64,000 bases of DNA from Leisingera sp. ANG-M7. Lineage in GTDB: Bacteria; Pseudomonadota; Alphaproteobacteria; Rhodobacterales; Rhodobacteraceae. The number at the start of each line of letters is the position of its first letter. The first letter of the stretch is position 1. The DNA is taken from contig NZ_JWLI01000005.1 in NCBI RefSeq assembly GCF_000813965.1, forward strand, positions 310,001 through 374,000, in the 5' to 3' direction. Position numbers and translations under genes: made by a program. Under the pieces are notes generated by a model, which worked only from the letters and a program-made list of their open reading frames with translations, ran no database searches and had not been told where the DNA came from. Shown piece by piece: positions 2,336 to 23,808 of this stretch.

Positions 2336-3172
2336 CTAATATCCAAATGCTTCGAAATCTGCCCGGTAGATTTGTTCAATGCGGGATTTGACGGAACTCG
2401 TCAGCAAGGTCTCACCTTCAAACTCTCCACTGTTCTTGTTGGCGTGAGGAACAGACCAATTGTCAGGGAGCTTGCGGTCAAGTCTCTCTGCCACCGACTT
2501 GTAGAAAGTTCCAAGATCTTCGGTCCGCCCGATCAGGTCGGCCTGGAACACATTTGGCTTGATGGAAGGAACCAGCGGTCTCCAATGCGGATCAACGCTG
2601 TCAGGGCCGGCCTGTTCAATCGTCTGAGCGACATAGTCGAGAAACTTCTCGAAACCTGCAGCCGTTCTGATGTCATTGTTCCAGTCGAACCGAACCATAG
2701 CATTCATCCGCAAGCGTTCGTCCACAAACCAGGGGTGATTGCGGTCATGTGATACGCAAAGATACAAGAAAGCCGACAGCGCCCGCCGTTCAGGGTTCCG
2801 AACAGTGGTCAGCTGCAACGTATCCGGAAGCAGCCGGTGCCCGCGAGGGAACGCGATCAGCGGCTGAAAGAGACCTGCTTCAGTCAGGCGGTGAGACGTG
2901 GCATCCGGATTGATGTCGGTGGCTGATGCAAACCTTGCCGTCAGCGGGATCCCGAACTCAAGTTCGAAGAGAAACCGTTTAGTCGAACTTGTGCCAGTTT
3001 TTCCGTTTGCTTTGTATGACCATGTGCGGCTTTGAGGGACGAAGATCCTCAGGAAATAGTCACGCACAGCAGGGAGATCTGAAAACTCATCAGGGAATGC
3101 CTGAAGGGCAGCGTCAAGGATGGCTTGACGCTGCTTCGGTCTCGGCGCTGTGTTGAAAAAGATCTCCGCCAT
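2336..3172 (-). CDS. Sulfotransferase family protein inserted between odhB and lpd
   Basis: This is a PAPS-dependent sulfotransferase of the Sulfotransfer_2 (carbohydrate sulfotransferase-like) type by motif. YKANGKTGTSSTKRF at about residues 53-67 fits the 5'-phosphosulfate loop, and TVRNPERRALSAFLYL at about 122-137 fits the 3'-phosphate loop (R-x-P-x-x-R-x-x-S). The acceptor is unknown; a surface polysaccharide is plausible. No signal peptide is seen. The start ATG lies only 5 bases after the odhB stop and has no Shine-Dalgarno sequence, so translation may depend on coupling to odhB. Three sampled 60-base lines are 47-50% GC, against 63% in a neighbouring odhB line, suggesting later acquisition. 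The family call is fairly sure, the role is not. Confidence 0.75.
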   Translation of the reverse strand: MAEIFFNTAPRPKQRQAILDAALQAFPDEFSDLPAVRDYFLRIFVPQSRTWSYKANGKTGTSSTKRFLFELEFGIPLTARFASATDINPDATSHRLTEAGLFQPLIAFPRGHRLLPDTLQLTTVRNPERRALSAFLYLCVSHDRNHPWFVDERLRMNAMVRFDWNNDIRTAAGFEKFLDYVAQTIEQAGPDSVDPHWRPLVPSIKPNVFQADLIGRTEDLGTFYKSVAERLDRKLPDNWSVPHANKNSGEFEGETLLTSSVKSRIEQIYRADFEAFGY

Positions 3173-3177
3173 AAAAG

Positions 3178-4692
<1,515 letters not shown>

Positions 4693-4704: not shown

Positions 4705-7656
4705 TCAGATGCTCAGCGCTTCGTTCACGAGGGCTGCTTGTTGGGCTTTGTGTTCGCTGGCCAGGCCGGTTGCGGGCGAAGCCGAGGTGGCGCGGCCTGC
4801 ATAGACGGGCCGGGTGTGCTTGGCGCCGATGCGGGTCAGCACCCATTCGATGTTGGGCTCGATGAAGGTCCAGGCGCCCTGATTCTTGGGCTCTTCCTGG
4901 CACCAGACCATTTCCGCCTGTTTGAAGCGTTCCAGCTCCTTCACCATCGAGATGGCAGGGAACGGGTAGAACTGCTCGATCCGCATCAGGTAGACGTCGG
5001 TGATGCCGCGGGCGTCGCGTTCTTCCAGCAGGTCGTAGTAGACCTTGCCCGAGCACATCACCACGCGCTTGATCTTGTCGTCCGCCACCAGCTGGGTATC
5101 GGAGTTGCCGTGCTGCGCGTCATCCCACAGCACCCGGTGGAAGCTGGAGCCAGTGGTGAATTCCTCTGCCTTGCTGACCGCCAGTTTGTGGCGCAGCAGG
5201 GACTTCGGGGTCACCAGGATCAGAGGCTTGCGGAAGGTGCGGTGCAGCTGGCGGCGCAGGATGTGGAAGTAGTTCGCAGGCGTTGTGCAGTTGGCAACGA
5301 TCCAGTTGTCCTGGCCGCACATCTGCAGGAAGCGCTCCAGACGGGCGGAGGAGTGCTCCGGCCCCTGGCCCTCGAACCCGTGCGGCAGCAGGCAGACGAG
5401 GCCTGACATCCTGAGCCATTTGCTTTCGCCCGACGAGATGAACTGGTCGAACATGATCTGGGCGCCGTTGGCGAAATCGCCGAACTGGGCCTCCCACAGG
5501 GTCAGGGCGTTGGGTTCCGCCAGCGAGTAGCCGTATTCAAAACCCAGCACCGCATATTCGGACAGGGCCGAGTCGATCACCTCGTACTGGGCCTGGCCCG
5601 CACGGATGTTGTTGAGCGGGTAGTAGCGCTCCTCGGTCTCCTGGTTGACGATGCCGGAATGGCGCTGGGAGAAGGTGCCGCGGGTGGCGTCCTGGCCCGC
5701 AAGGCGGACCGGATAGCCTTCGGTCATCAGCGAGCCAAAGGCCAGCGCCTCGCCGGTGGCCCAGTCAAAGCCTTCACCGGTTTCGAACATCTTGCCGCGC
5801 GCATCCAGAACCCGGCCGACGGTGCGGTGCAGCGGGAACCCTTCGGGCACCCGGCTGAGCGCGTTGCCGATCTCGGCCAGCGTCTCCGGTTTGATCGCGG
5901 TGCGGCCGCGCTGGTAGTCGGCGTCCTTCTTGTCCAGATGCGACCAGCGCCCGTCCAGCCAGTCGGCCTTGTTGGGCTTGTAGTTCTTGCCGGTCTCGAA
6001 CTCTTCATTCAGATGCGCCTGGAAGGCCGCCTTCATGTCCTCGATCTCGCCCTCGGGGATTAGGCCGTCCTTGACCAGCCGGTCGGTATAGAGGGTGAGC
6101 GTGGTCTTGTGGCCCTTGATTTTCTTGTACATCAAGGGGTTGGTGAACATCGGCTCATCGCCTTCGTTGTGACCGAAGCGGCGGTAGCAGAAGATGTCCA
6201 GCACGACATCCTTGTGGAATTTCTGGCGGAACTCGGTGGCAACCTTGGCCGCATGCACCACCGCCTCCGGGTCGTCGCCGTTCACGTGGAAGATCGGCGC
6301 CTCAACCACCAGCGCATTGTCGGTGGGGTAGGGGGAGGAGCGCGAGAAATGCGGTGCAGTGGTGAAGCCGATCTGGTTGTTCACCACGATATGCATGGTG
6401 CCGCCGGCCTTATGGCCCCTGAGGCCCGACAGGGCAAAGCATTCCGCCACCACGCCCTGGCCCGCAAAGGCCGCATCGCCGTGCAGCAGGATCGGCAGCA
6501 CCTGGCTGCGGTCGGTGTCGCCCAGCTGGTCCTGCTTGGCGCGGACCTTGCCCAGAACCACCGGGTTCACCGCCTCCAGGTGGGAGGGGTTGGCGGTAAG
6601 GCTGAGGTGCACGTTGTTGCCGTCGAACTCGCGGTCGGACGACGCGCCGAGGTGGTATTTCACGTCGCCGGAGCCGTCCACATCCTCGGGCTTGAAGCTG
6701 CCGCCCTGAAACTCGTTGAAGATCGCCCGGTAGGGCTTCTGCATCACATTGGCGAGGATATTGAGGCGGCCGCGGTGCGGCATGCCGATCACGATGTCCC
6801 GCACACCCAAGGCGCCGCCACGCTTGATGATCTGCTCCATCGCCGGGATGAGGCTCTCGCCGCCGTCCAGGCCAAAGCGCTTGGTGCCGGTGTATTTGAC
6901 GTGCAGGAACTTCTCAAAGCCCTCGGCCTCGACCATCTTGTTGAGGATCGCCTTGCGCCCCTCGCGGGTGAAGGTGATTTCCTTGTCGTAGCCCTCAATC
7001 CGTTCCTTCAGCCAGCTGGCCTCTTCGGGATTGGAGATGTGCATGTACTGCAGCGCGAAGGTGCCGCAATAGGTGCGTTTCACGATCTCCACGATCTGGC
7101 GCATGGTTGCGACCTGCAGGCCCAGCACGTTGTCGAGGAAAATCGGCCGGTCCATGTCGGCATCGGTGAAGCCGTAAGATTTCGGATCCAGTTCCGGGTG
7201 GCTGGCGCTTGCGCGCATGCCCAGCGGATCAAGGTCGGCCGCCAGATGGCCTCGGATCCGGTAGGCGCGGATCAGCATCAGCGCGCGGATCGAGTCCAGC
7301 ACCGCGCGCTGGATCTGATCATCGGTGACCTCGACGCCCTTGGCGGCGGCCTTGTCCTTGATTTTCTTGCCCGCGCCCTTGGCCTCCGCAGGGGCCGGCC
7401 ATTCGCCGGTCAGCGCGCCGGTCAGATCGTCATTGGGGGCCGGCGGCCAGTCGCCGCGCGCCCAGGAGGGGCCCTTGGCCTCTGCCTTCACGTCCAGTTC
7501 GGCGTCGCCCATCTGGCGGAAAAACTCGGCCCAGGCGGCATCCACCGCGTTGGGGTCATTGGCGTAACGGGCATAAAGCTGCTCCAGATACTCCGCATTG
7601 TGCCCCTGCATGAAGGAGGAGGCGTGGAAGAGGTCGTTGGGCGATTGGTCGGTCAT
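4705..7656 (-). CDS. sucA: 2-Oxoglutarate dehydrogenase E1 component
   Basis: Thiamine-diphosphate-dependent E1 that decarboxylates 2-oxoglutarate and succinylates the lipoyl groups of OdhB. The 983-aa length and order fit the family. The N-terminus (NDLFHASSFMQGHNAEYLEQLY) is the E2-binding helix. Further on come GMPHRGRLNILANV, HGDAAFAGQGVVAE (ThDP/Mg binding) and the C-terminal transketolase-like half with LLPHGFEGQGPEHSSAR. A GGAG ribosome site lies in front of the ATG at 7656. It is preceded by the small secreted-protein gene and followed closely by odhB, so E1 and E2 are cotranscribed. Confidence 0.98.
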   Translation of the reverse strand: MTDQSPNDLFHASSFMQGHNAEYLEQLYARYANDPNAVDAAWAEFFRQMGDAELDVKAEAKGPSWARGDWPPAPNDDLTGALTGEWPAPAEAKGAGKKIKDKAAAKGVEVTDDQIQRAVLDSIRALMLIRAYRIRGHLAADLDPLGMRASASHPELDPKSYGFTDADMDRPIFLDNVLGLQVATMRQIVEIVKRTYCGTFALQYMHISNPEEASWLKERIEGYDKEITFTREGRKAILNKMVEAEGFEKFLHVKYTGTKRFGLDGGESLIPAMEQIIKRGGALGVRDIVIGMPHRGRLNILANVMQKPYRAIFNEFQGGSFKPEDVDGSGDVKYHLGASSDREFDGNNVHLSLTANPSHLEAVNPVVLGKVRAKQDQLGDTDRSQVLPILLHGDAAFAGQGVVAECFALSGLRGHKAGGTMHIVVNNQIGFTTAPHFSRSSPYPTDNALVVEAPIFHVNGDDPEAVVHAAKVATEFRQKFHKDVVLDIFCYRRFGHNEGDEPMFTNPLMYKKIKGHKTTLTLYTDRLVKDGLIPEGEIEDMKAAFQAHLNEEFETGKNYKPNKADWLDGRWSHLDKKDADYQRGRTAIKPETLAEIGNALSRVPEGFPLHRTVGRVLDARGKMFETGEGFDWATGEALAFGSLMTEGYPVRLAGQDATRGTFSQRHSGIVNQETEERYYPLNNIRAGQAQYEVIDSALSEYAVLGFEYGYSLAEPNALTLWEAQFGDFANGAQIMFDQFISSGESKWLRMSGLVCLLPHGFEGQGPEHSSARLERFLQMCGQDNWIVANCTTPANYFHILRRQLHRTFRKPLILVTPKSLLRHKLAVSKAEEFTTGSSFHRVLWDDAQHGNSDTQLVADDKIKRVVMCSGKVYYDLLEERDARGITDVYLMRIEQFYPFPAISMVKELERFKQAEMVWCQEEPKNQGAWTFIEPNIEWVLTRIGAKHTRPVYAGRATSASPATGLASEHKAQQAALVNEALSI

Positions 7657-8538: not shown

Positions 8539-9423
8539 TTACTTGCCGATCGCTTTCAGCACCGCTTCACCCAGGCCGGCCGGGCTTTCGGCGACCACGA
8601 TGCCTGCGGATTTCATCGCTTCGATCTTGTCCTCGGCGCCGCCCTTGCCGCCGGCGACAATGGCGCCCGCGTGGCCCATGCGGCGGCCCGGAGGGGCGGT
8701 GCGGCCTGCGATGAAACCTGCAACCGGCTTCTTGCGGCCCTTCTTGGCCTCATCGGCCAGGAACTGCGCCGCCTCTTCCTCGGCGGAGCCGCCGATTTCG
8801 CCGATCATGATGATGCTTTCGGTCTCGTCGTCGGCAAGGAACCATTCCAGCACGTCGATATGCTCGGTGCCCTTGATCGGGTCGCCGCCGATGCCGACGC
8901 AGGTCGACTGGCCCAGGCCCACGTCGGTGGTCTGCTTGACCGCTTCATAAGTCAGGGTGCCGGAGCGGGACACCACGCCGACGGAGCCGCGGCGGTGGAT
9001 GTGGCCGGGCATGATGCCGATCTTGCAGGCGTCAGGGGTGATCACGCCGGGGCAGTTGGGACCGATCAGGATGGAGGAGGAGTTCTCCAGCGCGCGCTTT
9101 ACCTTCATCATGTCGAGAACCGGGATGCCCTCGGTGATCGCGACGATCACTTCCATCTCGGCGTCGATCGCCTCGAGGATCGAGTCCGCGGCAAACGGCG
9201 GCGGCACGTAGATCACGGAGGCGTTGGCCTCGGTCACATGCTTGGCTTCATGCACGGAGTTGAAGACCGGCAGATTCAGGTGGGTCTGGCCGCCTTTGCC
9301 GGGGGTCACGCCACCGACCATCTTGGTGCCGTAGGCAATAGCCTGTTCAGAGTGGAAAGTGCCCTGCGAGCCGGTAAAGCCCTGACAGATGACCTTGGTG
9401 TTTTCGTCGATGAGGACTGCCAT
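8539..9423 (-). CDS. sucD: Succinyl-CoA synthetase alpha subunit (ADP/GDP-forming)
   Basis: The alpha subunit binds CoA and carries the phosphohistidine during conversion of succinyl-CoA to succinate with NTP formation. The 294-aa protein has the CoA-binding N-terminus ([23 protein letters not shown]), the phosphosite region [10 protein letters not shown], and the active-site His251 in [11 protein letters not shown]. Its partner sucC is separated from it by a GT25 glycosyltransferase gene, whereas the two genes usually adjoin. The start follows 12 bases after that gene, consistent with one transcript. Confidence 0.98.
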
Positions 9424-9435
9424 GTTTCGGTTCCT

Positions 9436-10263
9436 TCAAGCGGTATGTGTGTGTTGGGTCTGCGGGGTGGCCAGGGAACGGCCGTCGAAGCGGATTTTTT
9501 CGAGGGTGGCCCGCCCCAGGACCACGCTGGGAAGTATTCGGAAGCCGCCGCGGAATTCGTATATCCCGCGCCGGAGTTTCTGGCGGATCAGCGGCCAGCC
9601 CTTGGGCCGGTAGCGCGGCGGGCCGACGCCCACTTCACCCGGTGCCTCATTGCCCTGTTCGGCAAGTGCGGGCTGAACCTGATAGACCTTGATGCCGCGT
9701 GCAGGTAGCGAGGCATCGAAGTTGAACAGCAGGTTGTCCAGCGTGATGCAGAACGGGCGGCTGTCCAGCAGATGCTGTGCAGCTTTCCGGCTGATCACAT
9801 ATGCCGCGCCGCCGGCGTGACGGGACAGCATCTGGCGCACCTCGCGGCCCAGATGGGTGAAGCTTTCCTTGCCAAGCGCCACCTGCAGCCTGTTGGCCCG
9901 CCAGCGCTCAAACTTGACAATGTCGGCATCCGCAGGCCACCAGGACAGATCCGCCAGCCAGGCGCCGGTGTCGGGCGACAGGAAGACATCATCCTCCAAG
10001 ATCAGCGCGACATCGGCATCCGAGGCCAGGAAAGTCCTCCAGGCCTTGGCATGGCTGAGGGTGCAGGCCATGTCCTTGGTCTGGAAGTAGCCCCAGTTGC
10101 CCTCGGAGCTGCACTGTTTGAGCATCTCCTCGCGGCTGACCTGGGTACTGTCCACCGCATCAATGCGCACAGCCTCGAGCCCGGCCTGATCCAGCTCCCG
10201 CTGCATCAGCTCCGCCCGGCCCGTGGCCTGCCGCAAGCCTATGAGGTAGACAGCCGCCTTCAC
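9436..10263 (-). CDS. Glycosyltransferase family 25 protein between sucC and sucD
   Basis: This is a GT25 (LPS galactosyltransferase-like) protein. The N-terminus AAVYLIGLRQATGRAELMQ matches the family opening (usually V-x-x-I-N-L), and ALILEDDVFLS places the metal/nucleotide-sugar acidic motif at Glu90-Asp91-Asp92. ACTLSHAKAWR at 67-77 matches the conserved G-x-x-G/L-S-H segment. The start is GTG at 10263, needed because the family N-terminus begins at once. It lies 12 bases after sucC and 12 before sucD, so it is likely cotranscribed with them. It probably acts in the cytoplasm on lipopolysaccharide or another surface glycan. The donor and acceptor cannot be deduced. Confidence 0.82.
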   Translation of the reverse strand: MKAAVYLIGLRQATGRAELMQRELDQAGLEAVRIDAVDSTQVSREEMLKQCSSEGNWGYFQTKDMACTLSHAKAWRTFLASDADVALILEDDVFLSPDTGAWLADLSWWPADADIVKFERWRANRLQVALGKESFTHLGREVRQMLSRHAGGAAYVISRKAAQHLLDSRPFCITLDNLLFNFDASLPARGIKVYQVQPALAEQGNEAPGEVGVGPPRYRPKGWPLIRQKLRRGIYEFRGGFRILPSVVLGRATLEKIRFDGRSLATPQTQHTHTA

Positions 10264-10275
10264 CGGATCTGGCCC

Positions 10276-11469
10276 TTAGCCCTTGACCGCCTTCACGATT
10301 TTCTCGGCGCCGTCCTTGAGGTTGTCGGCGGCGATCACGTCGAGGCCGGAGGTGTTGATGATCTCCTTGCCTTTTTCGACGTTGGTGCCCTCAAGGCGGA
10401 CAACCAGCGGCACCTTTAGGCCGACTTCCTTGACCGCGGCGACCACGCCCTCGGCGATCACGTCGCAGCGCATGATGCCGCCGAAGATGTTGACCAGGAT
10501 GCCTTTGACGTTCGGGTCGGAGGTGATGATCTTGAACGCCTCGGTCACCTTCTCCTTGGTGGCGCCGCCGCCGACGTCGAGGAAGTTGGCGGGCTCAGCA
10601 CCGTAAAGCTTGATGATGTCCATGGTGGCCATCGCCAGGCCGGCGCCGTTCACCATGCAGCCGATCTCACCGTCCAGCGCGATGTAGTTCAGGTCGTACT
10701 TGGAAGCTTCCAGCTCTTTCGGGTCTTCCTCGGTGGTGTCGCGCAGCTCAGCCACGTCGGCGTGGCGGTAGACCGCGTTGCCGTCGAACCCGACCTTGGC
10801 GTCCAGCACCTTGAGGCTGCCGTCGTCGCCGACGATCAGCGGGTTGATCTCCAGCATTTCCATGTCCTTCTCGACGAAGGCTTTGTAGAGCTGGCCCATC
10901 AGCTTGACGCACTGCTTGATCTGCGCGCCCTCCAGGCCCAGCGAGAAGGCGATGCGGCGGCCGTGGTACGCCTGATAGCCGGTGGCCGGGTCTACCGAGA
11001 AGGACAGGATCTTTTCCGGGGTGGCCGCGGCCACTTCTTCGATGTCCATGCCGCCCTCGGTGGAGCAGACAAAGGAGATGCGCGAGGTCTGGCGGTCGAC
11101 CAGCAGCGCCAGGTACAGCTCGGTCTGGATGCCGGAGCCTGCTTCGATGTAGATGCGGTTCACCTGCTTGCCGGCCGGGCCGGTCTGATGGGTGACCAGG
11201 GTGCGGCCCAGCATCTTCTTGGCTTCTTCGGCCGCTTCTTCCACCGATTTGGTCAGGCGCACGCCGCCCTTCTCGCCGGCGTCGGCCTCCTTGAAAGAGC
11301 CCTTGCCGCGGCCGCCTGCGTGGATCTGTGCCTTCACCACCCACAGCGGGCCGTCAAGTTCACCGGCGGCGGTTTTGGCTTCTTCGGCCCGCAGCACCAC
11401 GCGTCCGTCGGACACCGGAGCACCGTAGCTGCGAAGGAGGGCTTTGGCCTGATATTCGTGGATGTTCAT
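10276..11469 (-). CDS. sucC: Succinyl-CoA synthetase beta subunit
   Basis: The beta subunit has the ATP-grasp fold that binds the nucleotide and succinate. The 397-aa protein starts [19 protein letters not shown], the classic SucC N-terminus. It contains [15 protein letters not shown] (nucleotide-binding lysine region), EINPLIV, and [16 protein letters not shown] with FLDVGGGA in the C-terminal domain. It appears to be the first gene of the sucC-GT25-sucD-DUF805-sucA-odhB-lpd series. The upstream region carries the twin TTGTGATCAC dyads described separately. Confidence 0.98.
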
Positions 11470-11719
11470 TTGAAACTGTCCCGTCTGGCTGCAATTGTCT
11501 GCTGATTTATAGGCCGTGTTAAAGCCAAGTGTTAAAGGCTTTTTTGACAGGGGGCAGGGAAATGCGGAAGATTTTCGGTTTTTGTGATCACGGGTTTTGG
11601 GGGTGTGATCACAAAATGGCGACGGCGTGAAGCGGGTGATTCGAGCCAGAAGCCAAGGGCGGTGCGCGCCGCATCATAGATCAAAAGCGGCAGCGGCCGG
11701 AGCGGAAGCGCCGGCGCAA
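11470..11719 (-). other. sucC leader and promoter region
   Basis: No ORF is visible between the sucC start and the mdh terminator. Reading on the minus strand, the region holds the twin dyads (11581-11616). It then has an AT-richer segment with CTTTAACACTTGG and a possible -10 box CTATAAATC about 40 bases before the ATG. The promoter boxes are only guesses; the dyads are clear. Confidence 0.4.
11581..11616. promoter_or_regulatory. Twin palindromic operator upstream of sucC
   Basis: Two GTGATCAC palindromes lie at 11584-11591 and 11605-11612, 21 bases apart centre to centre (two helical turns). They are flanked so that the whole is an inverted repeat: TTTGTGATCAC on one side and GTGATCACAAA on the other. 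They sit 115-143 bases before the sucC ATG. The sdhC upstream region has the same arrangement at the same distance. The TTGT-GATC-ACAA shape resembles operators of GntR-type regulators, but the regulator is not identified. Confidence 0.65.
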
Positions 11720-18625: not shown

Positions 18626-18657
18626 TTGTGATCACTAATTATTTGCTGTGATCACAA
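18626..18657. promoter_or_regulatory. Twin palindromic operator upstream of sdhC
   Basis: GTGATCAC occurs at 18628-18635 and 18648-18655 (20 bases apart), and the whole reads TTGTGATCAC-N12-GTGATCACAA. It ends about 117 bases before the sdhC ATG. Content, order and distance match the element upstream of sucC. No other pair of this kind was found in the window. Confidence 0.65.
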
Positions 18658-18772
18658 GCCGTGGCGTTTTAGCGCCAACAGGCCAGAAACCTGCCGTTTT
18701 TAACCGTTCCTTCGGGTGACACGCCGTAAAAATCGGCTAAAACGTCGTCAGCCAACCTGAAAAGGAGCCAAC

Positions 18773-19156
18773 ATGGCCGATGTCAATCGGGGCAACCGCC
18801 CGCTTTCGCCGCATTTGCAGGTCTACCGGCCGCAGCTGACCTCCGTGACTTCGATCCTGACACGGATCACCGGCAACGCACTGATCGTCTCGGCGCTGCT
18901 GATCGCCTGGTGGTTCCTGGCTGCCGCAACCTCACCTGACTACTTCGCTATCGCCAACGGGCTGCTGACCAGCTGGTTCGGTGATCTGGTGATGACCCTG
19001 TCGGCGCTGGGCCTGTGGTATCACGCGCTGGCGGGTATCCGGCACCTGATCTGGGACAACGGCATGATGCTGGACCTGGAGCAGGCCGAGAAGCTGGGCT
19101 GGTTCGTGGTGATCGGCTCTGCCGTTCTGACTGTCCTTACCATTATCATCGTCTAA
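18773..19156 (+). CDS. sdhC: Succinate dehydrogenase cytochrome b556 subunit
   Basis: Membrane anchor of complex II, with three transmembrane helices (about 30-50, 64-88, 105-126). The N-terminal RPLSPHLQVYRPQLTSVTSILTRITG is the family signature, including the Ser/Arg region that lines the quinone site. HALAGIRHLIWD supplies the heme ligand His. A good ribosome site (AAGGAGCC) precedes the ATG. It is first of sdhCDAB. Confidence 0.96.
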   Translation: MADVNRGNRPLSPHLQVYRPQLTSVTSILTRITGNALIVSALLIAWWFLAAATSPDYFAIANGLLTSWFGDLVMTLSALGLWYHALAGIRHLIWDNGMMLDLEQAEKLGWFVVIGSAVLTVLTIIIV

Positions 19157-19174
19157 GCCCGGGAGGCACACGCA

Positions 19175-19546
19175 ATGCGATATCTGACTGACCGCAAGCG
19201 CGCCGTTGGCATGGGCGCTGCAAAATCCGGAACGGAACATCACTGGTCGATGCAGGTGAGCTCAATTGCTCTCCTGATCCTGGTGCCGCTGTTCGTCTTC
19301 ACCTTCGGCTCTGCGCTGGGCGGCACCTATGAAGAGATCACCGCCTATTACTCCCGCCCGTTCCCGGCGATCGTGGCGGCGCTGACCATGTGGGTCGGTA
19401 TGATGCACTTTAAATCCGGCGCCCAGACCATGATCGAGGATTACGTCCACGGGCTGAAAGGCCGTCTGACGATCATCCTGGTCAATTGCCTGTCCTATGC
19501 CGTCGCCGCGACCAGCGTTTACGCGCTGATCCGCCTGGCCCTGTAA
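19175..19546 (+). CDS. sdhD: Succinate dehydrogenase membrane anchor subunit
   Basis: The second complex II membrane subunit, 123 aa with three helices (about 27-49, 60-78, 95-117). It begins [24 protein letters not shown], typical of alphaproteobacterial SdhD, and carries [17 protein letters not shown], whose Asp-Tyr pair belongs to the quinone site region. GGGAGG in front of the start gives a good ribosome site. The gap to sdhC is 18 bases. Confidence 0.95.
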
Positions 19547-19565
19547 CTCCCCGAGGTCTTTTTCA

Positions 19566-21371
19566 ATGGCTGCTTACGAATACGAAACACATGAATATGA
19601 CGTGGTCGTGGTTGGCGCCGGCGGGGCCGGTCTCCGCGCGACGCTGGGCATGGCGGAGCAGGGGCTACGCACCGCTTGCGTAACGAAGGTGTTCCCGACC
19701 CGCTCCCACACCGTGGCGGCGCAGGGCGGTATTGCCGCGTCCCTGGGCAACATGGGCCCTGACAGCTGGCAGTGGCATATGTATGACACCGTCAAGGGTT
19801 CCGACTGGCTGGGCGACACCGACGCGATGGAATATCTAGCCCGCGAGGCCCCCAAGGCGGTGTACGAGCTGGAGCACTACGGCGTGCCGTTCTCGCGCAC
19901 CGAGGAAGGCAAGATCTACCAGCGCCCCTTCGGCGGCCACACCACCGAATTTGGCGAAGGCCCCGCGGTGCAGCGCACCTGTGCGGCGGCGGACCGGACC
20001 GGCCACGCCATCCTGCACACGCTCTATGGCCAGAGCCTCAAGAACAACGCCGAGTTCTACATCGAGTATTTCGCCATCGACCTGATCATGTCCGAAGACG
20101 GGCAGTGCCAGGGCGTTGTCTGCTGGAAGCTCGATGATGGCACCATGCATGTCTTCAACGCCAAGATGGTGGTGCTGGCGACCGGCGGGTACGGCCGCGC
20201 TTACTTCTCTGCCACTTCGGCGCATACCTGCACCGGTGACGGCGGCGGCATGGTGGCGCGTGCGGGCCTGGCGCTGCAGGACATGGAGTTCGTGCAGTTC
20301 CACCCGACCGGCATCTATGGCTCCGGCTGCCTGATTACCGAAGGCGCGCGGGGCGAGGGCGGTTACCTGACCAACTCCGAGGGCGAACGCTTCATGGAGC
20401 GCTATGCGCCCCAGTACAAGGATCTGGCGCCGCGCGACTATGTTTCCCGGTCCATGACCATGGAAATCCGCGAAGGCCGCGGTGTGGGCGCCGAGGGCGA
20501 CCATATCCACCTGAACCTGAGCCACCTGCCGGCCGAGGCGCTGGCGGAACGGCTGCCGGGCATCTCTGAAAGCGCCAAGATCTTTGCCGGCGTCGACGTG
20601 ACCAAGGAGCCGATCCCTGTTCTGCCTACCGTGCATTACAACATGGGTGGTATCCCCACCAACTATTGGGGTGAGGTGCTGAACCCGACGTCCGAGGACC
20701 CGACCGCGGTTGTGCCGGGCCTGATGGCCGTGGGCGAAGCGGGCTGCGCCTCGGTGCACGGTGCCAACCGGCTTGGATCCAACTCGCTGATCGACCTCGT
20801 GGTCTTTGGCCGTGCCTCCGCCATCCGCGCGGGCAAGGTAGTGGACGCAGACGCGGCGAACCCGGTGCTGAATCAGGCCTCCGTCGATAAGGCTTTCGAC
20901 CGCTTCGACACCCTGCGTAACGCCAATGGCGGTATCCCGACCGCGGATCTGCGCCTGGAAATGCAGAAGTGCATGCAGGCAGACGCGGCGGTGTTCCGCA
21001 CCTCCAAGACCATGGCGGAAGGCGTCGAGAAGATGACCGAGATCGCGGCCAAGCTGGATGACCTGAAGGTGACCGACCGCTCGCTGGTATGGAACTCTGA
21101 CCTGATGGAGACGCTGGAGCTGACCAACCTGATGCCAAACGCGCTGGCGACCATCGTTGGCGCCGAAGCCCGCAAGGAAAGCCGTGGCGCCCACGCGCAT
21201 GAGGACTTCACCACCCGCGACGACGAGAACTGGCGTGTCCACACCGTCTCCCGCGTGGAGGGCAACAAGGTTGATCTGACCTACCGCCCGGTAATCACTG
21301 ACCCGCTGTCCACCGAAGCCGAAGGCGGCATCAGCCTTGCCAAAATCGCGCCCAAGGCGCGGACGTTCTAA
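19566..21371 (+). CDS. sdhA: Succinate dehydrogenase flavoprotein subunit
   Basis: The catalytic subunit that oxidises succinate to fumarate with covalent FAD. The dinucleotide motif [12 protein letters not shown] is at about 14-25. His48 in [11 protein letters not shown] is the flavin-linked histidine. [21 protein letters not shown] and the C-terminal [17 protein letters not shown] belong to the substrate and capping domains. Length 601 aa is normal. It lies 19 bases after sdhD. Confidence 0.99.
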
Positions 21372-21382
21372 GGAGACAGACC

Positions 21383-22162
21383 ATGGTTCAATTCAGCCTC
21401 CCGAAGAACTCTAAGATCACCACCGGCAAGACCTGGCCCAAGCCGGAGGGCGCCAGCAATGTGCGCAAGTTCAAGATCTACCGCTGGAACCCGGATGACG
21501 GGAAAAACCCGCAGGTCGATACCTATTTCGTCGACATGGACAGCTGCGGCCCGATGGTCCTGGACGCGCTGATCAAGATCAAGAATGAGATCGACCCGAC
21601 CCTGACCTTCCGCCGGTCCTGCCGCGAGGGGATTTGCGGGTCCTGCGCAATGAACATCGACGGTATTAACACGCTGGCCTGTATCTACGGCATGGACGAG
21701 ATCAAGGGCGATGTGGCGATCTACCCGCTGCCGCACATGCCGGTGGTTAAGGACTTGATCCCGGATCTCACGCATTTCTATGCCCAGCATGCCTCGATCA
21801 TGCCGTGGCTGGAGACCAAGACCAACCGCCCGGCGAAAGAGTGGAAGCAGTCCATTGAGGACCGCAAGAAGCTCGATGGCCTCTATGAGTGCGTGATGTG
21901 CGCCAGCTGCTCGACCTCCTGCCCGAGCTACTGGTGGAACGGCGACCGCTACCTCGGCCCGGCAGCCCTGCTGCATGCTTACCGCTGGATCATCGACAGC
22001 CGGGACGAGGCCACGCCTGAGCGCCTGGACCAGCTGGAGGATCCGTTCAAGCTCTACCGCTGCCACACCATCATGAACTGCGCCAAGACCTGCCCCAAAG
22101 GCCTGAACCCGGCCAAGGCAATTGCGCATATCAAGAAGATGATGGTCGAGCGCGGGGTCTGA
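21383..22162 (+). CDS. sdhB: Succinate dehydrogenase iron-sulfur subunit
   Basis: Carries electrons from FAD to quinone through three clusters. The [2Fe-2S] motif [14 protein letters not shown] is at about 75-88. [16 protein letters not shown] and [17 protein letters not shown] give the Cys sets of the [4Fe-4S] and [3Fe-4S] clusters. Length 259 aa is typical. The start lies 11 bases after sdhA with AAGGAGA as ribosome site. A terminator closes the operon. Confidence 0.98.
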
Positions 22163-22968: not shown

Positions 22969-23679
22969 ATGCAACCGCATTTCTATGCCATTCTGCTTGC
23001 CGGTGTTGCCGGGCTTTCGATGCCGCTGGGCGGGCTTCTGGCCTGGTGCGAGCACATCAGCAATCCGGTGCTGCGCAATCGGGTGCTGCACGCAATCGCG
23101 GCCTTTGGCGGCGGCGCGCTGGCATCAGCCGTGGCGCTTGTTCTGGTGCCCGAAGCGGCCGAGGCGCTGCCTGCCGCTTGGGCGGTTGGCCTGTTTGCCG
23201 CGGGCGGTTTGGTTTTCTATCTTGTGGATACGGTGCTGCAGCGCCATGGCGGCAGCGGTGCCTTGCTGCTGGCGATGCTGCTAGATTACCTGCCAGAGGC
23301 CATGGCACTGGGGGCGATGCTGGTCGCAGATGCGGCCACGGCCAAGCTGCTGGCGCTGATGATCTTCCTGCAAAACGTGCCAGAGGGGTTTGCTGCCTTC
23401 CGTGAGGTCTGGAGCGGTGACAGCCGGGCCTGGCATGTGCTGCTGCTGTTTCTGGGGCTGGCCGCTCTTGGGCCTGCCTGCGCGCTGGCGGGTCTGGTCT
23501 GGCTGGCGGAAGCCCATGCTGTGCTCGGCGGGATCATGATCTTTGCCGCGGGCGGCATCCTCTATCTGCTGTTTCAGGACATCGCCCCCAAGGCGCACAG
23601 CAGCCGCAGCAGCGCACCTGCGCTGGGGGCGGTTGCGGGTTTTGCGCTGGGGCTGGCCGGTCATCTGCTGATCAGCTGA
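22969..23679 (+). CDS. ZIP family metal transporter-like protein
   Basis: A 236-aa polytopic protein with about eight helices. The ZIP helix IV/V motifs are recognisable as LLDYLPEAMALGAM and IFLQNVPEGFAAFRE. In well-studied ZIP proteins the second motif is H-N-x-P-E-G; here the metal-binding His is Gln (QNVPEG), and the first motif has Asp where His is usual. Zinc or other divalent metal uptake is the family role, but these changes may alter or abolish it. The ATG at 22969 is 46 bases after the second lipoprotein. Confidence 0.78.
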   Translation: MQPHFYAILLAGVAGLSMPLGGLLAWCEHISNPVLRNRVLHAIAAFGGGALASAVALVLVPEAAEALPAAWAVGLFAAGGLVFYLVDTVLQRHGGSGALLLAMLLDYLPEAMALGAMLVADAATAKLLALMIFLQNVPEGFAAFREVWSGDSRAWHVLLLFLGLAALGPACALAGLVWLAEAHAVLGGIMIFAAGGILYLLFQDIAPKAHSSRSSAPALGAVAGFALGLAGHLLIS

Positions 23680-23808
23680 GCCGCAGCCTGCGTGCCGGAT
23701 TGCAGTAACTGCATGGCAAACCTGCAAAAACATCCGGTGCGCCGGGTGGCGCCATCGGGTAGCTTGCAAACCAAGGGAGGATGGTGCCGCAAGTAAGGAG
23801 ACCGCCCG

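Follow-up and report, generated by a model that had tools for sequence, protein, structure and literature searches.

The 64-kb window (the whole stretch of DNA that was analysed) carries genes of the TCA cycle on both strands. The minus strand contains mdh, sucC, sucD, sucA and sucB, and the plus strand contains sdhC, sdhD, sdhA and sdhB (18773-22162, with sdhC itself at 18773-19156; Pfam). The sucC gene (10276-11469), which encodes the beta subunit of succinyl-CoA synthetase, was recognised by the Pfam domains ATP-grasp_2 and Ligase_CoA, and sucD (8539-9423), encoding the alpha subunit, by CoA_binding and Ligase_CoA. Downstream in the same direction, Pfam matches indicate sucA (4705-7656), encoding the E1 component of 2-oxoglutarate dehydrogenase, and sucB (3178-4692), encoding the E2 component. 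A glycosyltransferase family 25 gene (9436-10263, minus strand) is located between sucC and sucD, and a sulfotransferase-family gene (2336-3172, minus strand) follows sucB co-directionally. A GntR gene directly after sdhB was considered as a candidate and rejected, as the ORF at this place encodes a ZIP transporter according to Pfam.

A twin operator composed of two copies of the palindrome GTGATCAC lies in front of both sucC and sdhC. In the 302-bp gap between mdh and sucC, direct reading of the sequence gives TTGTGATCAC at 11582-11591 and GTGATCACAA at 11605-11614; the sucC-side twin thus spans 11582-11614 (minus strand), and its GTGATCAC dyads occupy 11584-11591 and 11605-11612, with the centres 21 bp apart. 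The sdhC-side twin, read in the same way, spans 18626-18657 (plus strand) and has TTGTGATCAC and GTGATCACAA arranged as at sucC; its dyads are located at 18628-18635 and 18648-18655, with the centres 20 bp apart. Relative to the start codons, the dyads of the two twins start at -143/-122 and -145/-125. The first-pass annotation had described paired palindromes upstream of both TCA operons, with centres 21 (sucC) and 20 (sdhC) bases apart, 115-145 bases before the start codon and with no further such pair in the window. All of this holds: the pairs were found at 11584-11612 and 18628-18655, the measured spacings are the same, and the search of the window gave only those two. In total, GTGATCAC occurs seven times in the window, compared with a mean of 0.79 in dinucleotide shuffles, and the three single copies (9038, 40341 and 57462) are all within ORFs.

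Taken alone, GTGATCAC is common in the genome, where it is found in 190 places; by arithmetic from this number, about 0.09 chance pairs are estimated for the 11 spacings N8-18. Pairs with spacings of N6-20 number only three genome-wide, namely the two twins and one pair inside a Mur-ligase (folC-like) ORF, which has no TT/AA flanks. The exact TTGTGATCAC is found 12 times in the genome: four matches are in the two twins, one is at the start of a GntR gene, six are in ORFs, and one is near a contig end (C20:222-231), at a position that no complete ORF covers.

Conservation in relatives had been set beforehand as the test of the twin, and the pair proved to be widespread. With a spacing of N8-18, it was detected in 267 of the 295 sampled Rhodobacteraceae genomes and in 266 of the 294 genera sampled, whereas the reversed control pattern was found in none. 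A hand count gave two pairs in 201 of the 267 genomes, one in 48 and three or more in 18. In total, 72 pair loci were read, comprising the two of the window and 70 of the at least 75 pairs listed for relatives (those left out are two of G133, two of G124 and one of G151). The pair precedes sucC in 36 of them and sdhC in 32, i.e., in 68 of the 72 loci, the window's own included; four pairs lie elsewhere, and one of these (L074) adjoins mdh. The distance between the centres in the 68 sucC and sdhC loci is 21 bp in 64 cases and 20 bp in four. An extra pair with 21-bp spacing was noted in genome G042 (L070, 1501-1529), outside the called ORFs and in a 3-kb locus without SucC, SdhC or Mdh. In a class-wide sample, the pair was present in 9 of 289 genomes, four of them within the family. 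Outside the family, five of the 285 class genomes contain it, and no match (E 1e-3) to SucC, SdhC, SdhD, SdhA or Mdh was found in the 2.5-3 kb loci of these five pairs.

A gene encoding a GntR-FCD protein (P0002) is located on the same contig outside the window (G000:C45, about 23052-23708). The protein contains the PF00392 (GntR, 52.7 bits) and PF07729 (FCD, 65.7 bits) domains, which places it in the GntR family, and TTGTGATCAC is found at the start of its gene (G000:C45:23033). There are 25 GntR-domain matches in the genome, and P0002 alone has an exact TTGTGATCAC at the start, as judged by coordinates, with the bare GTGATCAC only partly covered. In the 30 closest P0002 homologue loci fetched, its own included, GTGATCAC is just upstream of the gene in every case. 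Among the named homologue loci, which are the best 80 of 512 relatives, 61 have GTGATCAC just upstream and 19 lack an exact upstream site; in the control, the palindrome was found in 59 of 4000 random windows. The named relatives include Ruegeria, Rhodovulum and Haematobacter, which points to Rhodobacteraceae as the family sampled. An NCBIfam search gave no match above the cut-off, and no relative of P0002 was detected among viral contigs. One GTGATCAC pair from outside the family (L269, 1501-1532), with its centres 24 bp apart, has beside it a gene (695-1396) for a GntR relative that shares 35% identity with P0002.

The AkgR protein of Rhodobacter sphaeroides is presumably RSP_0981 (Imam et al. 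2015, mBio). GTGATCAC is reported as the motif of AkgR, a transcriptional activator (PMC6365646), and the GntR regulator RSP_0981 has the predicted targets RSP_0967-6, RSP_0974-6 and RSP_0965-62, with succinyl-CoA synthetase, succinate dehydrogenase and 2-oxoglutarate dehydrogenase as their functions (PMC4344238). These predicted targets match the genes downstream of both twins in the window: GTGATCAC is present twice at each operon, the sites precede sucC and sdhC, and sucD, sucA and sucB follow sucC co-directionally, so that sucCD, sdh and sucAB are all represented. The first-pass annotation had proposed a single GntR-type regulator that could not be named at that time. Since the motif and the targets match those of AkgR/RSP_0981, and since the genome contains a GntR-FCD gene with the same palindrome, the regulator of the twins can most likely be named as the already published AkgR; together with the co-occurrence described below, this naming is well supported. 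P0002 would then be the same protein as RSP_0981. An R. sphaeroides record was not found among the best 80 of 512 P0002 relatives.

Putative promoters can be placed between each twin and its gene. At sdhC, the best consensus score in the window indicates a -35 box GTGACA at 18716-18721, and the consensus score gives a -10 box TAAAAC at 18738-18743 (plus strand). A GTGACW box is present in 27 of the 32 sdhC loci within the span read, and positions +22 and +23 from this box are T and A, respectively, in 23 of the 27 each. Its distance from the twin was determined for 170 listed matches (150 rows listed from a search of 186 genomes and the 20 rows of a complete second search). In 129 of them, the box follows the twin at 57-61 bp; the others have it at 47-48 bp (8 matches), 68-71 bp (13), 77-82 bp (10) or other distances (10). 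Thus, 31 of the 41 off-peak matches are about one or two helical turns away, and 10 of the 170 listed fit no phase peak. The 41 off-peak matches keep the helical phase (R 0.48 at 10.5 bp and 0.52 at 11 bp), and 3 of 20000 random draws were as strong at 10.5 bp; the related genomes in this test are not independent, and the 170 listed matches include some pairs before sucC. The counts for the phase test, as well as those for the co-occurrence and near-pair tests below, were copied by hand from search tables.

At sucC, the best consensus score in the window points to a -35 box TTAACA at 11530-11535, and the consensus score also gives a -10 box TATAAA at 11506-11511 (minus strand). In the 36 sucC loci, T is found at offsets 47, 48 and 49 in 31, 30 and 25 cases, respectively. 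This T-rich stretch fits a -35 box about one turn nearer the twin than at sdhC. The sucC promoter is less certain, since in many relatives, and especially at sucC, other candidates score higher against the plain promoter consensus.

Several other sequence features were noted near the twins. The bases at 11572-11573, 10-11 bases past the sucC-side twin, are both A or T in 36 of 36 sucC loci, which might reflect a bend in the DNA or a longer contact. In five of the 32 sdhC loci (L048, L055, L071, L127 and L142), CGCCAAAA is present at a fixed offset, 24 bases past the twin, and it is also seen in several listed rows of the family search. We take CceR, a LacI-family regulator of alphaproteobacteria, to be RSP_1663. 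According to PMC5507952 and PMC4344238, the predicted targets of RSP_1663 in R. sphaeroides also include sdh and mdh; its predicted motif, [AGT]GTT-N6-8-AAC[ACT] (PMC4344238), is unlike the twin palindrome. The sequence GTTTTAGCGCCAAC at 18666-18679 resembles this motif, but has C before GTT. The CceR motif, in the form given in PMC4344238, is not enriched after the twins, with 2 of 36 and 2 of 32 loci versus shuffle means of 1.4 and 1.1, while the shorter TAGCGC is somewhat commoner there (4 and 5 loci versus shuffle means of 1.2 and 1.6).

Very probably, the twins are operators of the GntR/FCD protein AkgR, at which pairs of dimers activate sdhC and sucC from a fixed helical face, with akgR itself probably self-repressed. 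This reading builds on the twin, its spacing and phase, the motif before the regulator gene, and the joint absence of gene and twin, all of which are seen directly here. Each dyad would be occupied by one AkgR dimer, which places two dimers next to each other at a distance of two helical turns, and their binding to the twin would be cooperative. Bound upstream of both -35 boxes, AkgR would touch RNA polymerase from a fixed helical face and thereby activate the sdhC and sucC promoters. The position and phase of the twin fit activation, which would proceed by contact; the GTGACW box in phase with the twin suggests that it proceeds from one face of the helix. One-face binding had been proposed from the outset, and it is supported by the 20-21 bp between the dyad centres as well as by the phasing of the twin relative to the inferred sdhC promoter.

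Many GntR proteins are repressors, and AkgR could bind the twin as a repressor site or for looping instead of as an activator contact. We consider this unlikely, as the twin is located upstream of the inferred -35 boxes, with 98 bp (sdhC) or 88 bp (sucC) between the centre of the nearer dyad and the downstream start inferred for the window, the twin is in helical phase at sdhC, and AkgR is termed a transcriptional activator in PMC6365646.

The arrangement at the promoter of akgR is of another kind. Here, a single dyad follows a -35-like TTGAC box and precedes the start codon, in the region where the spacer and the -10 box are expected. Across the 86 distinct site-bearing akgR upstream sequences, each base of TTGAC at -18 from the dyad is found in 69 to 76, and the exact TTGAC at that position is present in 44 of the 61 named akgR loci with the site; in all 61 of these, an in-frame ATG is located +15 to +20 relative to the dyad. 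The location of the dyad in the place of the spacer and the -10 box suggests self-repression, so that AkgR probably represses its own gene, the single dyad within the promoter mediating negative autoregulation. As the ATG is about where transcription should start, the akgR message may be leaderless. In the genome of the window, akgR has on either side a gene for a guanylate-cyclase-domain protein with TPR repeats (L024, 1137-2996 and 3763-6000).

The pair and the regulator gene tend to be present or absent together. Among the 295 genomes, 260 contain both the pair and a strong orthologue of P0002, 23 contain neither, seven the pair only and five the gene only (Fisher p 1.7e-23, with genomes taken as independent). 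The limit for a strong orthologue, E below 1e-70, was set once the table had been inspected. Thus, 23 of the 28 pairless genomes are without a strong orthologue of the GntR gene. In two of the five gene-only genomes, G040 and G291, the corresponding position upstream of sucC holds a twin with one mismatch (0 of 200 shuffles for each genome). The remaining three (G147, G155 and G166) have no exact pair; the search for sucC found none in G155 and, in G147 and G166, only a paralogue at 51-52%. Six of the pair-only genomes (G019, G033, G096, G256, G264 and G273) are at most 93% complete, and the seventh, G114, is listed as 100% complete. Near twins in the pairless genomes were read on the sucC side, where 20 of 22 loci were readable (for G109 and G008, the pattern used yielded no start). 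In 16 of the 18 readable genomes that lack a strong orthologue, any twin candidate was matched by at least 22 of 200 shuffles. A candidate with three mismatches was found in G017 (1 of 200 shuffles) and one with four mismatches in G157 (4 of 200); these imperfect twins are possibly relics. On the SucC tree of 57 rows (37 with a pair or near pair and 20 with none; one of the 36 sucC loci was dropped for length), the pair label needs nine changes, at least five of which are forced by well-supported branches. The absence of the pair is thus scattered over the tree and is therefore not the effect of one lineage.

The protein acting at the sites might instead be another GntR/FCD paralogue that recognises this palindrome. 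The genome offers 25 GntR-domain matches from which such a protein could come, and the 35% relative outside the family adjoins a GTGATCAC pair. In addition, the GntR regulator PS417_07240 of Pseudomonas simiae, which is 32% identical to AkgR and differs from it in belonging to a deoxyribonate cluster, is proposed in PMC6365646 to read GTGATCAC too, as the same 8-bp palindrome lies near the start of its gene cluster. This explanation appears very unlikely, since, of the 25, P0002 alone has an exact TTGTGATCAC copy at the start of its gene, the site recurs at most of its homologues, and gene and twin tend to occur in the same genomes (the co-occurrence was run for P0002 alone). Finally, although TGTGA...TCACA is superficially like a CRP half-site pair, a CRP- or FNR-type site (half-sites TGTGA-N6-TCACA or TTGAT-N4-ATCAA) or a leader RNA hairpin is highly improbable, as direct reading gives at both twins a palindrome without a 6-bp or 4-bp gap and a half-site that is not TTGAT, and the twin precedes the inferred promoter and would be untranscribed from it.

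We lean modestly towards a broader view, in which one 8-bp palindrome serves two opposite architectures: tandem dimers, placed whole helical turns from the promoter, would activate sdh and suc, while a single dyad in the core promoter would repress akgR, whose message is possibly leaderless. The system would be kept across most of the family, with the sites repeatedly absent together with the gene.

By sequence, the nearest solved relative of P0002 is McbR of E. coli (structure 4p9f, E 1.5e-21), a protein from a different organism. The targets of McbR differ from those of AkgR. The likeness to AkgR of R. sphaeroides consists in the motif GTGATCAC (PMC6365646) and in the GntR family and predicted targets (PMC4344238), whereas the present analysis describes the spacing of the twin, its phase relative to the promoter and the akgR promoter site. 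In the literature passages and listings covered, which did not include Imam et al. 2015, AkgR was in some cases named in reference lists only, and no description of the twin spacing was found. The regulon and the motif are already known, and the twin is a real, well-conserved operator pair of this published regulon; the twin spacing, the promoter phase and the akgR arrangement are additions that may be new in print. With them, a known regulon becomes a geometric hypothesis, in which twin dyads two turns apart are phased with the promoter, and class-I-like activation by a GntR/FCD protein becomes directly testable.
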